Below are positions 16,613-31,795 of a stretch of 42,652 bases of DNA, in pieces. The stretch spans positions 1-42,652 of IMG/VR virus record IMGVR_UViG_3300029309_000089. One strand, given 5' to 3'. Made by a program: the position numbers and the translations under genes. Position 1 is the first letter of the stretch; every line of letters starts with the position of its first letter. Origin of the DNA: a virus. The notes beneath the pieces are model-generated. The model saw only the letters and a program-made list of their open reading frames with translations, was not told the origin of the DNA and did not search any database.

Positions 16613-16881
16613 GATTTTTTATAGAAGGCAATAGAACTAGAATCGTAACAACAGAAATCACAGAAACCTTTACAGGTTGTATTGATATCACCAAAAAAGA
16701 AGTCATGGCTATAACAGGTTGCCCTGCTGTTGAAGATGGCGACTCAACCGCATGGTATAACTATGTAGAAGAAGCAATCTTACAGGGAGCTAAAGTAGAA
16801 GAAGATTTAGAGAAAGATGTTGTTATGGAAAATAAATCAGAAGAATCAATCTACACAATCCTTGATGTGAGTTGGTTATGA
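16609..16881 (+). CDS. Hypothetical early protein
   Basis: A 90-residue acidic protein starting MRFFIEGNRTRIVTTEITET, overlapping the previous gene by four bases. It has a beta-rich N-terminal third and an acidic helical remainder (VEEAILQGAKVEEDLEKDV). No motif is recognised. Its TGA overlaps the ATG of the acetyltransferase-like gene (ATGA). Confidence 0.55.
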   Translation: MRFFIEGNRTRIVTTEITETFTGCIDITKKEVMAITGCPAVEDGDSTAWYNYVEEAILQGAKVEEDLEKDVVMENKSEESIYTILDVSWL

Positions 16882-17408
16882 ACTTAGTGAATCTTAAATT
16901 AGGAGAAGCTCAATATTTTATTGAGCAGAATCACAGGCATAGCGAGCCTTTGAAGAGACATAAGTTTTCCATTGGAGTATGTAATGATGACTATAACGAG
17001 CTTTACGGAGTGCTTACTGTTGATGTGCCATCTGGCAGATGGAAAAACCCTCGTGACAAAATAGAGATCCGAAGAGTTTGCACTTTGCCTAATCAAAAGA
17101 ATGTTGCTAGTTTTCTAATTGGTAAAGCGGTCACTGCCTGTTTTGCTATGGGTTATAAGGAGATCCTGACTTATACCAGACCTCACGAAAGCGGAAGCAC
17201 TTTAAAAGCCTGTGGATTTAGTCTTAACCACGCTTCAAAAATCAAAGTAGTTGATGGAACAGAAGTAACAGGTTTACTCTGTTGGTATAAAAAAAGCAAA
17301 ACACAGCAGACAAGCAGGAATACTTATAAGTATTTAGATCATCTTAAAGAATTTTTACAACAAAACTTGAAAGGAGATAAATATGACATTTCAAATGGCA
17401 GTCGGTAA
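16878..17408 (+). CDS. XF1762-type GNAT-like acetyltransferase
   Basis: A 176-residue protein. An upstream TTG at 16872 is possible, but the ATG at 16878 in an ATGA overlap is the likely start. Features: FIEQNHRHSEPLKRHKFSIG, LYGVLTVDVPSG, IEIRRVCTLPNQKNVASFLIG, KAVTACFAMGYKEILTYT and ESGSTLKACGFS. These match, from memory, the XF1762 family, a compact GNAT-fold group seen in phages and plasmids. GNAT enzymes move acyl groups from CoA to amines, and the substrate here is unknown. The final 35 residues are extra charged sequence. Confidence 0.65.
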   Translation: MNLVNLKLGEAQYFIEQNHRHSEPLKRHKFSIGVCNDDYNELYGVLTVDVPSGRWKNPRDKIEIRRVCTLPNQKNVASFLIGKAVTACFAMGYKEILTYTRPHESGSTLKACGFSLNHASKIKVVDGTEVTGLLCWYKKSKTQQTSRNTYKYLDHLKEFLQQNLKGDKYDISNGSR

Positions 17409-17574: not shown

Positions 17575-17863
17575 CTAATAGATTTTCTACTTGTTCCAAT
17601 AGTTCCTGTTCTGTTCCGTAGGCTTTCTCAAACCTAGCTTTGTATGGGTGTCTGCTTATAGGCTCTTCAAAACCGCCATAACGGTGATGTGAGGGGCATA
17701 AAGGCAGTACCTTAAGGTGTGTGTCTTTTTTTGTTTTTCCGTACACATGGTGGATTTCAGAAGGAGATCCGTAAAACCCTTGATTCATACAAACTATACA
17801 ACCTAGTTGCTGTACTTTACTCATATGTTCTTTTTCAGCTTTGTTTGGGTTTCTGCCTTTCAT
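17561..17863 (-). CDS. Ref-like HNH-type nuclease
   Basis: A 100-residue protein with paired metal- and catalysis-type motifs: CIVCMNQG, then EIHHVYGKTKKDTHLKV, then LCPSHHRYGGFEEPISRHP. The CxxC, IHH and CPSHH arrangement matches the phage P1 Ref family (RecA-dependent nuclease) and related phage HNH proteins. Ref cuts DNA at RecA filaments. A recombination role fits the operon, which also holds an annealing-type protein and a PD-(D/E)XK nuclease. It starts four bases inside the upstream CmoA-like gene (ATGA-type coupling). Confidence 0.7.
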   Translation of the reverse strand: MKGRNPNKAEKEHMSKVQQLGCIVCMNQGFYGSPSEIHHVYGKTKKDTHLKVLPLCPSHHRYGGFEEPISRHPYKARFEKAYGTEQELLEQVENLLANQW

Positions 17864-18516
17864 CCTTTATAGACTGTGTAACCCATAAAATTATATGATT
17901 GCCATACTTTAGTAAAATTTCCTAGATATCCTAATTCCATTTCTAATTCTTTTTCTGTTTTACAATACATTGATACACTTAATTGATTATCTTTGTCTAA
18001 AATTTGTTTGTCGGTAAAGTGCAATCTTTTTTCTTGTATGTGCATTCTATGAATTAAAGTTTGTAGTCTTGTATTATCTAAAAAAACTTTTTCAGATATT
18101 AGTAAAACAGTACCTTGCTCTATAAAATTTTTTAACAACTCTAAAACTCTTTGTCTTTTTGATTTTCCTAAAAACTGCAATGTGAACATACAAATCAAAC
18201 ATGAAACATTTTCTTTCAAATATTTTTTTAAAGATTCCTCTACATCTATTTGATAATAACAAAAGGATTGTCGTCTATTTTTAAAATTTACAGTATCGCA
18301 ACCTACATATTTTGTATCTGGCATTTTGGTTAAATTGTGTAAAAATCTTCCTGTAGAACAACCTAAATCTAATACGATACTTTCTGGTTGTGCATATTCA
18401 TATGTAATAGAACTGAATATATTGTCTAAAGTTAAAAAATTAGGTATTGATAATTTTATATGATTATCAAAATCATCTACATTACTAAAATCAAATTTTT
18501 CTTTAATACTTTTCAT
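17860..18516 (-). CDS. CmoA-like SAM-dependent enzyme (possible carboxy-SAM synthase)
   Basis: A 218-residue Rossmann-fold protein. FDNHIKLSIPNF (residues 16-27) matches the CmoA N-terminal 'F.DMI.RSVPGY'. DLGCSTG (50-56) is SAM motif I. MFTLQFL (110-116), LLISEKVF (138-145) and the C-terminal WQSYNFMGYTV match CmoA's NFTLQFL, VLSEKF and FQCFNF. CmoA makes carboxy-S-adenosylmethionine from SAM and prephenate. By eye, CmoA Arg199, which I recall as contacting the carboxylate, aligns with Asp176, and CmoA Asn132 with Met110, so the product is not certain. No CmoB partner is present, which argues against the tRNA wobble uridine pathway. Its first 14 bases overlap the cytosine methyltransferase gene, implying translational coupling and a linked role. 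Confidence 0.75.
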   Translation of the reverse strand: MKSIKEKFDFSNVDDFDNHIKLSIPNFLTLDNIFSSITYEYAQPESIVLDLGCSTGRFLHNLTKMPDTKYVGCDTVNFKNRRQSFCYYQIDVEESLKKYLKENVSCLICMFTLQFLGKSKRQRVLELLKNFIEQGTVLLISEKVFLDNTRLQTLIHRMHIQEKRLHFTDKQILDKDNQLSVSMYCKTEKELEMELGYLGNFTKVWQSYNFMGYTVYKG

Positions 18517-19651
18517 GCACTTTTTGTATTCTACTTCCTAACCATTCCATAACATTAACTGACATTGCCCTTCCACAAGCCTCATATCTTTTTGAGACAG
18601 GAGCATCCTCTTTAGGCTTATTTCTGTAAGGCACTTGCGTATAGTTATCAGGAAAACCTTGTAGCCTTTCAACCTCTATTGGTGTGAGCCTACGGATTAC
18701 ATTGTTTCTCATAATTACTGGTTGACGATTACCTCCTGTCATAGCATTTAAGGTCGGAGAAACTTCTTCCTTGTATACTCTAGCAACCTTATCAGGTGTA
18801 TTTGTTTCAACAACAGTGTATCGGTCATGAGCTGTTAAAGACCAAGAAACACCATCATCATTCCAAGACTTGCCATTAGAACCTGTTTGGCTTTCCCTCA
18901 TAATTACTAAGTCCGTTGCTGACTTATAATCCCTAGCTGCTAATGTACCTGCAACATTATCTTCAGTGTATTCGTCACTTCTTACTTGTCTAATTGTTGT
19001 TTTTGAAAGTTTTTCAAAACTATTTTTACTGTTTTCTCCAGACTTTCTGGCAATTTCTTCTGATTTTTTTCTGCGCGGCGTAGAATTGCTTGACATTGTT
19101 TCTCTGTCAAATAGTACCTCTGCTGCACTTCGCCAGTCTCCAAGACATCCGACAACGAAGATACGCCTGCGTCTTTGTGGCAATGCTCTTGGAAATCGTT
19201 GTGTTCTGACAAATTCAGTGTTAAGAACCCTGTAGGCGAACCCATACCTGAGTTCTGCCAAAGCTCCGAAGAAGGTTGCAAGATCTTTTCCTTTGTTAGA
19301 TGACAAGATACCGGGCACATTTTCCCAGAGAATCCATTTAGGCTTAATTCTTTCAGCCAACTTAATAAACTCAAGTGCGAGGTTTCCTCTATCTTCTGCA
19401 AGCCCTTTGCGAAGTCCAGCGATACTGAAGGTTGCACAGGGGGTTCCTCCAACAAGGACATCTGGTTGTTCTGGTAAGTCTTGTCTTTTGATTTTTGTGA
19501 AGTCGCCATGATTTTTTACCTCTGGATAATGATAGTTTAAAACTGCTGACCTGAATGGGTCAATTTCTGATAGTCCTACACATTTAAAACCTAATGGATG
19601 CCAAGCAACACCTACTGACTCTATACCGCTGCATATAGATAAGTATTTCAT
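18503..19651 (-). CDS. Cytosine-C5 DNA methyltransferase with Arg in place of motif X Asn
   Basis: A 382-residue protein with all C5-methyltransferase motifs: LSICSGIES (motif I), GGTPCATFS with catalytic Cys72 (IV), WENVPG at 109-114 (VI), LPQRRRRIFVVG (VIII), RLTPIEVERLQGFPDNY (IX) and ACGRAMSVNVMEWLG (X). In almost all relatives motif X reads GNS. Here it is GRA, with Arg361 (codon AGG, 18571-18569). That Asn lies by the cofactor. I recall that a basic substitution at what I believe is the same Asn in the bacterial enzyme M.MpeI allows use of carboxy-SAM. The target-recognition region is about 200-315 and the target sequence is unknown. The gene directly follows a small gene (TAG then ATG) and overlaps the CmoA-like gene. 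Confidence 0.93.
   Translation of the reverse strand: MKYLSICSGIESVGVAWHPLGFKCVGLSEIDPFRSAVLNYHYPEVKNHGDFTKIKRQDLPEQPDVLVGGTPCATFSIAGLRKGLAEDRGNLALEFIKLAERIKPKWILWENVPGILSSNKGKDLATFFGALAELRYGFAYRVLNTEFVRTQRFPRALPQRRRRIFVVGCLGDWRSAAEVLFDRETMSSNSTPRRKKSEEIARKSGENSKNSFEKLSKTTIRQVRSDEYTEDNVAGTLAARDYKSATDLVIMRESQTGSNGKSWNDDGVSWSLTAHDRYTVVETNTPDKVARVYKEEVSPTLNAMTGGNRQPVIMRNNVIRRLTPIEVERLQGFPDNYTQVPYRNKPKEDAPVSKRYEACGRAMSVNVMEWLGSRIQKVHEKY
18982..19509 (-). CDS. ORF nested in the methyltransferase gene in another frame (dual-coding candidate)
   Basis: A 175-codon frame lies wholly inside the methyltransferase gene. AGAGGTAAAAAATC precedes its ATG, a good ribosome binding site and spacing. The product has LLSWLKELSLNGFSGKMCPV, NSGMGSPTGFLTLNLSE, SSLSDVLETGEVQQRYYL and CQAILRRAEKNQKKLPESLE. 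I recall very similar sequences as annotated phage proteins of unknown function beside such methyltransferases. The overlap region in the methyltransferase frame (GDWRSAAEVLF) is itself a recurrent element. Either both frames are used, or the other entries are shadows of the same overlap. The region encodes no known domain. Confidence 0.4.
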   Translation of the reverse strand: MATSQKSKDKTYQNNQMSLLEEPPVQPSVSLDFAKGLQKIEETSHLSLLSWLKELSLNGFSGKMCPVSCHLTKEKILQPSSELWQNSGMGSPTGFLTLNLSEHNDFQEHCHKDAGVSSLSDVLETGEVQQRYYLTEKQCQAILRRAEKNQKKLPESLEKTVKIVLKNFQKQQLDK

Positions 19652-28825: not shown

Positions 28826-29971
28826 CTAGCCACTTCCTTGTCTTATGACAATCGTAGAAGCACTTCCACCATTGACCTTAACCTGATTGGCTACCCCATC
28901 TTGTTCTAAAATAACAGTATAAGAATTGTTGCCATCAATAGTAATGTTGGCATTTGAACTAACTTCTCTTTTCATGCTTATGGATTGACCAGACACAACT
29001 GTTGTTATTTGAGTGCTGCTATCTTGTCCTACTGTTGTGCCTTTTATGTCTATTGCTGTAGCAACTTGTCTTATTTCATCTTCCTCTTCTATGGCATCTA
29101 ATTCGTTGATAATATCCAACAAATCCTCAAGGAAATTTACATTCAAAGCATCATAATCTAGCTCAGTAAATTCTAGTTCTTCTCCCTCAAGCTCATCTTC
29201 TGCTAATGCGTCATATTCAAGTTCGTCAAAATCTAATATGTCGCTTTGGCGAGAGTCAATAGCTTCCTCTTCGCTTTTTTTGCTTTTTGGTGGGGAAACA
29301 ATCAACATATTATCAATGAAGTCTAATGATAAATCTAAAATCACAGGCTCAGATGGTGGGCTTTCAAATGTTGTTGTAGTGGTAGCCTGATATGGTTTAT
29401 TTAGAATTACCTCTCCCAATGCTGTTGTGACCACTATTTCTCCTGATGATGTTCCGTCAGGGTTTGGTAAAAGAATAAATAAACTCTCTCCTGTGTCTGC
29501 CTCTACTGTAACTGTGAAATCTGTACCCCTGATTCCGACAGTTGCACTATTTGTTCTGAGAACCATATTTTTTTTGGGAACCGAACCTAATAAACCTGTT
29601 GTGAATCTAGCTGTGCCTTTTACAAAATTGAGTGCTAGTTTTGAATTGTCAGGGTTAGGGTCAAAAACAAACTCATCAATAATGACCTCTGAGTGTTCTG
29701 TAATCTTGATAGTAGTATCATCAACGAATCTGATACCCATGCGACCTGATTCTGTCTGAGCTTTGTCGTATGACTGTATGCCAAAGTCAGGTATGACTTC
29801 GTAAGCCTTATCTCGTTCTACCTGTGCGTTTCCTGAAACTTCTTCTACAGAACCTATATCAGCAGCTTGTGCTTGTACCTTGATCGTTTTGAACGACACA
29901 AACAGTACCATTATTACCGCTAGAAATAACTCTGAGCCAATCGTTGTCCAATGTGCTTGCTTGTGTAACAT
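28826..29971 (-). CDS. Secreted FecR-domain protein with curlin-like C-terminus
   Basis: A 381-residue protein. It has a signal peptide (hydrophobic LFLAVIMVLFVSF, probable cut after KVQAQA near residue 36). A FecR-type domain spans about 40-165: GSVEEVSGNAQVERD, FVDDTTIKITEHSEVIIDEF, LALNFVKGTARFTTGLLG and RTNSATVGIRGTDFTVTVE. An acidic linker follows (about 225-300, including EEEAIDSRQSDILDFDELEY). The last 50 residues carry curlin-like repeats: ANITIDGNNSYTVILEQDG then ANQVKVNGGSASTIVIRQG. The start overlaps the curlin-like gene by 113 bp; the ATG at 29911 is an alternative. Its place after csgF, csgG and the curlin gene suggests it is secreted and may anchor or seed the fibre. That role is inferred. 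Confidence 0.75.
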   Translation of the reverse strand: MLHKQAHWTTIGSELFLAVIMVLFVSFKTIKVQAQAADIGSVEEVSGNAQVERDKAYEVIPDFGIQSYDKAQTESGRMGIRFVDDTTIKITEHSEVIIDEFVFDPNPDNSKLALNFVKGTARFTTGLLGSVPKKNMVLRTNSATVGIRGTDFTVTVEADTGESLFILLPNPDGTSSGEIVVTTALGEVILNKPYQATTTTTFESPPSEPVILDLSLDFIDNMLIVSPPKSKKSEEEAIDSRQSDILDFDELEYDALAEDELEGEELEFTELDYDALNVNFLEDLLDIINELDAIEEEDEIRQVATAIDIKGTTVGQDSSTQITTVVSGQSISMKREVSSNANITIDGNNSYTVILEQDGVANQVKVNGGSASTIVIRQGSG

Positions 29972-30566
29972 TTAAAGTTCTTGAGTTGCCTGTGTGATCT
30001 AAATAAAAATAACCACCCTGATATCCATCACCATTGTAATTGATGGTATTTGAATCCCCATCTATATCCATGTAATTGGTTGCTAGATCAACATCTATGT
30101 CGGCATCTACTGTATTACTATCACCTTGAATTATCCAATCTAAGTCAAGCGTAGAAGCCATAGCAGTTGTGCCTTGATCAATGGACATATCGTTTGAGTT
30201 ACCTGTTACATCTACATTAAGGTTAGAAGAATCAGCTCCGTAAGTATTTGTCGGATCTACTTGAATATCAAAAATATTGCTGTTGCCATCAAACTCAAAA
30301 AAGCCTGTAAAAGTATCTGATGTAATATCCCCTTTGAATAAGTTGCTATCACCTATTTGATTGATATCAAGCGTCATGGTTGCTCCGTCCAAATCTAAAG
30401 GAGTCATAGAACCTGCTGTAGCATTCTGTCCACCAATAAGGTTGCCTGAACCTAATTGCTCAACATCTAAATTAAGAGTTGCTCCTACTTGATCTATAGA
30501 AACTTCATTATCAGCCCCGTAAGCTAGAGCAGTCATCATCAATACACTTAGGTATCTCAATATCAT
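29859..30566 (-). CDS. Secreted curlin-repeat protein (CsgA/CsgB-like)
   Basis: A 235-residue protein starting MILRYLSVLMMTALAYGADN. The ATG at 30566 is set by TTTGGAGGTACG upstream. The signal peptide probably ends at AYG. The mature N-terminus has clear curlin repeats: NEVSIDQVGATLNLDVEQLG, then LDINQIGDSNLF. Six further G(D/N)SN-type turns recur about every 20-25 residues (GNSNIF, GNSNDM, GDSNTVD, GDSNTI, GNSRTL, GNNGTV). Later repeats are looser and Asp-rich, and two Cys lie near the end. It is rich in Asn, Asp, Gly and Ser and poor in Lys, like amyloid curlin subunits. It follows csgG with a 56-bp overlap, so its export through that channel is likely. Confidence 0.75.
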   Translation of the reverse strand: MILRYLSVLMMTALAYGADNEVSIDQVGATLNLDVEQLGSGNLIGGQNATAGSMTPLDLDGATMTLDINQIGDSNLFKGDITSDTFTGFFEFDGNSNIFDIQVDPTNTYGADSSNLNVDVTGNSNDMSIDQGTTAMASTLDLDWIIQGDSNTVDADIDVDLATNYMDIDGDSNTINYNGDGYQGGYFYLDHTGNSRTLNVTQASTLDNDWLRVISSGNNGTVCVVQNDQGTSTSC

Positions 30567-31362
30567 CGTACCTCCAAAGGTTTTGCTCAATACCCTTCTC
30601 TATGATTTTGAGAACCGCAAATTCAATAGCGGATTGCAATGCAATAGTTACAGATTCATTTTCCACATTTCCATTCTCTATTTCAACTAATTCTGTGTCA
30701 TCTTTGACAAATCTGAACACATCTCCTGACTGTCCATGACTCAATATGGTTTTTGTAGTTGTTACTTCTAATAATATGCGTCCAGAAAGCACAGAAACGA
30801 GCCTCAAGCTCAATGTCACTGTGTCTTGCCTATATTGCCTACTTATACCAATACCGAGCAATCTAGCCCCATTACCGCCTGATCTGACATTTGACTCATA
30901 GCCTACGATAGCCCCCTCAAAGAGCATTCCTGCAAATAATAATGGCTTTAGTTTCTGCTCATCTTTGAAATCCTGTCTGGAACTTCTGATTATCTGTCTT
31001 TCTTTTGTAAGGTTGTCTAAACCAACTCTTTCAACGACTGTAAAGAATTCACCTCCTGCTGCGTCTTTTAAGGCTTTGATCAGAAGATTGGCAGGGGCTT
31101 GAGTTACCGCAGTAGAAAAGGACGCATAGGTACTGTTAGATCTTCGTTGCCCTGTCATATCAAGAAAGGCACTTGGATAAACTGCTACCACTAATTTTTC
31201 TTTAGGTGGCGACAAGTATTCAAGTTCGTAATTTATAACATCATGTAAATGCGGATATTTTGATATACGAAAGTTATCTAGTTTGTTTTTAGGTAATGCT
31301 CCGCAGCTAGAAAGTGAAACTATTGATAGGGAAAGTAATGACAGTAACATGACCTTCCTCAT
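30511..31362 (-). CDS. csgG: CsgG-like outer-membrane curli secretion channel lipoprotein
   Basis: A 283-residue protein close to E. coli CsgG in length (277). The lipoprotein signal is MRKVMLLSLLSLSIVSLSSC, with lipobox LSSC. Matches to CsgG: LVVAVYPSAFLDMTGQ, ASFSTAVTQAPANLLIKALK, FFTVVERVGLDNLTKERQII, AGMLFEGAIVGYESNVRSGG, GARLLGIGISRQYRQDTVTL, LRLVSVLSGRILLEVTTTKT and the end IEKGIEQNLWRYDD. CsgG forms a nonameric pore for curlin export. The start is uncertain: ATG 31350 has the better site (GAGGAAGGTC), but 31362 gives the positive n-region expected of a signal peptide. It overlaps csgF. Confidence 0.92.
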   Translation of the reverse strand: MRKVMLLSLLSLSIVSLSSCGALPKNKLDNFRISKYPHLHDVINYELEYLSPPKEKLVVAVYPSAFLDMTGQRRSNSTYASFSTAVTQAPANLLIKALKDAAGGEFFTVVERVGLDNLTKERQIIRSSRQDFKDEQKLKPLLFAGMLFEGAIVGYESNVRSGGNGARLLGIGISRQYRQDTVTLSLRLVSVLSGRILLEVTTTKTILSHGQSGDVFRFVKDDTELVEIENGNVENESVTIALQSAIEFAVLKIIEKGIEQNLWRYDDIEIPKCIDDDCSSLRG

Positions 31363-31795
31363 CTGTAATAGTAAGCGTAATCGTTTCATCATCTGACTCA
31401 TATTCTATGGTGTTACCTTCTAACTCAATAGAACCCTCTTTTGAGGCAGTTTCTCCGAAAAGATTTTCTACAAGTTGCCTTGATAGTTGTGCATACACTC
31501 TGCTTTCTAAGTTACGAATGAACCTAGACAAAGTGGTGTTGTTTTCTTCCCTTTCTAATTCTTCCGCTAATGCTTTGATTTCTTCTAATAATGTTTTCTT
31601 CCTTGTGTGTTCTTGATTTTCAATGGTCAGATAATGTTGCGATGTATTAAATCCAGAGAAACTAGGTGACTTAAATTTAAAAACCATCTCGTCTGTAAAA
31701 ACAAAGTTTGAGAACAATAACAAAAATATGACAAGTAAAACAAAAAATATAATTGTGTTTAGCTGTCTTTTTTTATATTCCCACCAATCTCTCAT
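31307..31795 (-). CDS. csgF: CsgF-like curli assembly factor
   Basis: A 162-residue protein. An N-terminal hydrophobic stretch (about residues 13-33, TIIFFVLLVIFLLLFSN) is followed by EMVFKFKSPSFSGFNTSQHY, which matches the mature CsgF start MTFQFRNPNFGG. That segment is the part that plugs into the CsgG pore. LSRFIRNLESRVYAQLSRQL and VENLFGE match the CsgF helix, and the C-terminal strands (TIEYESDDETITLTITDEEG, HVTVITFPINSFTF) match its beta part. E. coli CsgF is 138 residues; the extra length is a long N-terminus and a charged linker. It precedes and overlaps csgG. CsgF couples secreted curlin to nucleation at the cell surface. Confidence 0.85.
   Translation of the reverse strand: MRDWWEYKKRQLNTIIFFVLLVIFLLLFSNFVFTDEMVFKFKSPSFSGFNTSQHYLTIENQEHTRKKTLLEEIKALAEELEREENNTTLSRFIRNLESRVYAQLSRQLVENLFGETASKEGSIELEGNTIEYESDDETITLTITDEEGHVTVITFPINSFTF

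Follow-up and report, generated by a model that had tools for sequence, protein, structure and literature searches.

The window analysed here is an IMG/VR contig of 42,652 bases, a virus record with genes for terminase, portal, prohead protease, capsid, tape measure and tail. Judged from its sequence, it very probably carries a CmoA-CmoX DNA carboxymethylation module, in which the transferase stands outside the SPPC clade of published CmoX enzymes and is of P1-Dmt-like origin. A system of this kind was recently described for Synechococcus phage S-B43 (Yang et al., Nat Commun, 7 Dec 2025; PMC12783734). There, the phage CmoA makes carboxy-SAM (Cx-SAM), and CmoX, a homologue of C5-methyltransferases, yields 5-carboxymethylcytosine (5cxmC) at GC, a DNA modification known since 2025. 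The initial annotation of the window had proposed the same pathway, a Cx-SAM-producing CmoA coupled to a C5-methyltransferase with a basic residue in motif X. This proposal is supported by our data and has since been proven for S-B43; it was correct in kind but is no first discovery, its core idea having been published in December 2025. Apparently new is the transferase lineage, an independently evolved branch of the known system. The two adjacent genes, annotated with an overlap of 14 bp, were recovered with identical positions, strand and length, and cmoX is followed by cmoA:

18503..19651, minus strand: predicted CmoX-like DNA cytosine C5-(carboxymethyl)transferase, 382 aa (PF00145, E 4e-54; HhaI alignment)
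17860..18516, minus strand: predicted CmoA-like carboxy-SAM synthase, 218 aa (4gek, E 3.6e-13; TIGR00740; fold match to CmoA structures)
18503..18516, minus strand: cmoX/cmoA overlap of 14 bp, the start codon of cmoA (ATG) lying in the last part of cmoX
18569..18571, minus strand: codon for Arg361 (AGG), equivalent to HhaI Asn304 and SpCmoX Arg350 (alignments)
19436..19438, minus strand: codon for Cys72, the catalytic Cys of motif IV (GGTPCATFS; alignment)
19433..19435, minus strand: codon for Ala73, equivalent to HhaI Gln82; Gln in the relatives lacking CmoA (alignments)
17989..17991, minus strand: codon for Asp176 of CmoA, in the column of E. coli CmoA Arg199 (alignments)

The first gene matched the DNA_methylase family PF00145 over the whole profile. 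Catalytic motifs of a C5-cytosine DNA methyltransferase were present (PC71-72, ENV110-112, Q159-R163 as motif VIII, and motif X with Arg361), in agreement with its annotation as a full enzyme with GRA in motif X. Using a HMMER alignment with M.HhaI (10mh), ACGRAMSVNV was placed opposite QFGNSVVINV, so that R361 corresponds to N304, as had been presumed. In SpCmoX (structure 8YF3) the equivalent Arg350 touches the carboxylate of Cx-SAM, the R350N variant is inactive, and the wild type enzyme accepts Cx-SAM only (PMC12783734). The engineered M.MpeI N374K, cited in the same paper, is the change to which the annotation had referred; it, too, can use Cx-SAM owing to a basic residue in place of the motif X Asn. 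In M.HhaI, Q82 and N304 are also the positions at which smaller side chains are engineered so that bulky SAM analogues fit (PMC10666283). Yang et al. list 5,615 CmoX sequences, each with both SPPC and the Arg (PMC12783734). The window enzyme has the Arg at this position, and CmoA is encoded by the overlapping gene, but it and its branch have GGTPC around the catalytic Cys. Reading GGTPCATFS and not SPPC, it would not have passed the filter of the published search. An AlphaFold model of the window CmoX, built with 11 relatives, was discarded (pLDDT 51).

The assignment of the second gene as a CmoA homologue held at the level of both sequence and fold. Besides the match to E. coli CmoA (4gek), the family profile TIGR00740 was hit with an E-value of 1.2e-16 and 61.2 bits, below its curated cut-off of 193.3, as is SpCmoA (115.6), a proven Cx-SAM synthase with a kcat of 2.33 per s (PMC12783734). 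The structural model reached a mean pLDDT of 89, and its six best PDB fold matches were all CmoA structures (TM 0.75-0.81). Sequence identity to SpCmoA was 27%. In E. coli CmoA, Arg199 forms a salt bridge to the carboxylate (PMC3663124). It had been cautioned that this residue aligns with Asp176 in the window and that the protein may thus have another product. The alignment itself was confirmed, and the Arg is indeed not retained. However, all aligned phage CmoA sequences of the window type and of the published type have Asp or Glu in this column, and the active SpCmoA has Glu there, which removes the doubt. A CmoB, looked for in the whole record, was not found, as annotated. A CmoA-like segment was also seen within a protein of roughly 1830 aa of Maribacter phage Panino (L144:4855-10344).

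Relatives of the window enzyme in IMG/VR divide cleanly into those with GR[ASG]M together with PCAT, PCAS or PCVS and those with GNSM together with PCQ. Counting non-identical loci with room downstream, CmoA was found alongside 44 of the 46 Arg-type (GR with PC[AV]) and none of the 21 Asn-type (GN with PCQ) loci of the window branch. Fisher's test gave a p-value of 2e-15 for this contrast, with relatedness ignored and the Arg-type loci forming essentially one clade, so that their count amounts to close to one evolutionary event. Asn-type contigs searched over their whole length had no CmoA either. Co-occurrence of CmoA with the Arg variant had been named as a check on the proposal; for the window branch, the pairing is far above chance. 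Two Arg-type contigs had no CmoA nearby: at the expected place one (L171/L172) carries CmoY and the other (L168) a gene which reads as ThyX from its sequence. The L168 and L172 contigs do contain weak CmoA-like matches, but these lie inside ORFs of 1230 and 1507 aa and were left out of the CmoA count. These phages might use the CmoA of their host, by analogy with SpCmoX, which does so in E. coli (PMC12783734). In a further locus (L192), a window-type Arg enzyme was found with CmoY and a different CmoA of the Moraxella phage type. L196, an enzyme with Asn and Gln on a 32-kb contig without CmoA, falls into one clade with the window-type Arg enzymes (support 100/100). Its closest neighbour is L255 (Arg, Ala, CmoA), to which it is 68% identical over the tree columns. 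By the tree, the state of L196 within this clade may be either ancestral or a reversal. Scanning bacterial genomes for the window-type enzyme yielded Asn-type relatives only, which pointed to no host.

In S-B43 the ligase CmoY adds glycine to 5cxmC, and virion DNA contained the glycine amide while 5cxmC itself was not found (PMC12783734). The window record, which is possibly incomplete, and about 13 further long contigs of the window type gave no match to a CmoY homologue, suggesting that in them the pathway may end with free 5cxmC or some other derivative. Possible, though less likely than not, is the view that 5cxmC serves as a handle only, with its carboxylate converted by an unrecognised phage enzyme such as a non-homologous ligase or by a host enzyme, and that free 5cxmC is not the end product. 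The S-B43 virion DNA favours this conversion, as does the minority of window-type loci (9 of 46) retaining a CmoY homologue next to cmoX in the manner of S-B43; the lack of CmoY from the window and the long contigs argues against it. So does the search for a conserved neighbour able to replace CmoY, which found none in 63 loci; no other enzyme was conserved beside the pair. The Mom-like gene described below is not conserved beside the pair.

The window transferase and published CmoX differ in ancestry. Two methyltransferase trees with different samplings were calculated after removal of the diagnostic columns of motifs IV and X. In both, the window type fell within P1-Dmt-like GNSMAV enzymes. 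The SpCmoX types were nearest to enzymes with GSPPCS..FS and GMSVPP of LoVEphage and Fpv5, in whose records no CmoA was present. Forcing window-type and published CmoX into one clade was rejected by the AU test in the two samplings (dlnL 107, p-AU 6e-62, and dlnL 101, p-AU 2e-5), p-values which are indicative given the long branches in these trees. The CmoA genes of the window, published and L258 types, on the other hand, formed one clade (99/93) versus cellular-like CmoA, in a tree with a tentative root and thin cellular sampling (the E. coli segment from the alignment plus homologues from phage records). Both methyltransferase branches lost the Gln of motif IV and have Arg at the motif X position. 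We read these trees as a single lineage of phage CmoA that became linked to unrelated methyltransferases, with parallel changes in the latter at the two sites, and the ability to carboxymethylate seems to have evolved in the window branch separately from published CmoX. A single carboxymethyltransferase ancestor of both types, their distance being due to fast evolution, would agree with the common clade of the CmoA genes and with the long branches, but is improbable in view of the AU tests and of the different nearest non-Arg methyltransferases (GNSMAV versus GMSVPP).

Linkage to CmoA can also occur without the Arg. In L258-L264, L266 and L278, CmoA lies directly downstream of a GGFPC C5-methyltransferase which keeps the motif X Asn (NGM[TS]), and the relatives of these enzymes without CmoA read LGN[AS]. 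A regular expression had suggested Met at this position, a reading overturned by the multiple alignment (NGM, with Asn kept). As Asn is kept, the group is an exception and not a third lineage with a basic residue, and it falls outside the published Arg rule. In L266 (6635-7781), a second methyltransferase was observed downstream of CmoA, with GKSMAV, i.e. Lys at motif X, its N-terminal half being encoded in one frame and its C-terminal half in another. That the window enzyme is an ordinary 5-methylcytosine enzyme with a neutral change in motif X, next to a CmoA homologue that makes something else or serves tRNA, is very unlikely: the sub-threshold TIGR00740 score and the CmoA-linked lineage with Asn speak for it, but Arg, loss of the motif IV Gln and CmoA linkage covary tightly, CmoB is absent, and wild type SpCmoX with the same Arg takes no cofactor other than Cx-SAM.

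Several further features of the record were noted. A Ref-like RecA-dependent nuclease (PF16786; 17561-17863, minus strand) overlaps the end of cmoA by 4 bp. Near the pair, a Mom-like DNA modification protein of the XF1762 family is encoded at 16872-17408 on the plus strand (NF045478, E 3e-30; PHROG 1384), possibly a second DNA modification system of the same phage. Unusual for a phage are two late genes after the tail fibre, coding for CsgG of curli transport (30511-31401, minus strand) and a FecR-domain protein (28826-29971, minus strand). Inside cmoX, an ORF of 175 aa runs in the +1 frame (18982-19509, minus strand). All 42 relatives examined, of the window type and of the Asn type, keep this frame open over 145-204 aa. 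Along it, synonymous substitutions in cmoX are suppressed, with a codon identity of 0.70 as against 0.56 in front of the ORF and 0.48 behind it. The ORF is hence probably a genuine overlapping gene; the L258-type methyltransferases contain nested ORFs of a similar kind.

Genes, residue equivalences, co-occurrence and the separate ancestry of the transferase were directly observed for the module. Cofactor, product, target site and protective role are transferred from the S-B43 biochemistry. By this analogy, the CmoA homologue, sharing ancestry with that of S-B43, would convert SAM and prephenate to carboxy-SAM. In the transferase Cys72 would act as nucleophile and Arg361 would hold the carboxylate of the cofactor. 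Cytosines of the target site would receive the carboxymethyl group at C5, so that the phage DNA would contain 5-carboxymethylcytosine, most likely a protection from host nucleases. The transferase itself would derive from a P1-Dmt-like cytosine methyltransferase (GGTPCQSFS/GNSMAV), changed at the motif IV Gln and the motif X Asn in parallel to published CmoX. A broader and more speculative picture, which we regard as possible but doubtful, is that carboxymethyltransferases arose from phage cytosine methyltransferases on two or more occasions, in branches unrelated to each other, around a single mobile CmoA gene and through the same two kinds of change (loss of the motif IV Gln, Arg at the motif X position), that window-type phages stop at free 5cxmC, and that the branch of L258-L264, L266 and L278 binds carboxy-SAM otherwise. 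The window branch provides a natural replicate of the conversion of a methyltransferase to a carboxymethyltransferase, with L196 as a close natural control, and would tell which changes suffice. It may also be a source of DNA-labelling enzymes that recognise other target sites, and the window type, without CmoY, could show whether free 5cxmC itself is a protective phage base.

Comparing the module with known systems, it resembles CmoA-CmoX(-CmoY) of S-B43 in having cmoA close to a C5-methyltransferase homologue with Arg at HhaI N304 and the motif IV Gln replaced, in the acidic residue at the R199 column of CmoA and in lacking CmoB. It differs in motif IV (GGTPCATFS versus SPPC), in an identity of about 25% to SpCmoX, in the other ancestry of the methyltransferase, in the order cmoX then cmoA and in having no CmoY in the record. 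P1 Dmt-like phage methyltransferases (GGTPCQSFS/GNSMAV; e.g. of Roseobacter phage CRP-821) belong to the same C5-methyltransferase branch, with 43-55% identity and the same nested +1-frame ORF, but keep Asn and Gln on contigs without CmoA. Engineered M.MpeI N374K likewise has a basic residue where motif X normally has Asn, while being a laboratory mutant with Lys instead of Arg and no linked cofactor maker. With the CmoA/CmoB pathway for cmo5U in E. coli tRNA, the window has in common the CmoA fold and, by homology, probably the cofactor chemistry; CmoB is missing, Arg199 is replaced by Asp, and the partner of CmoA is a DNA methyltransferase.
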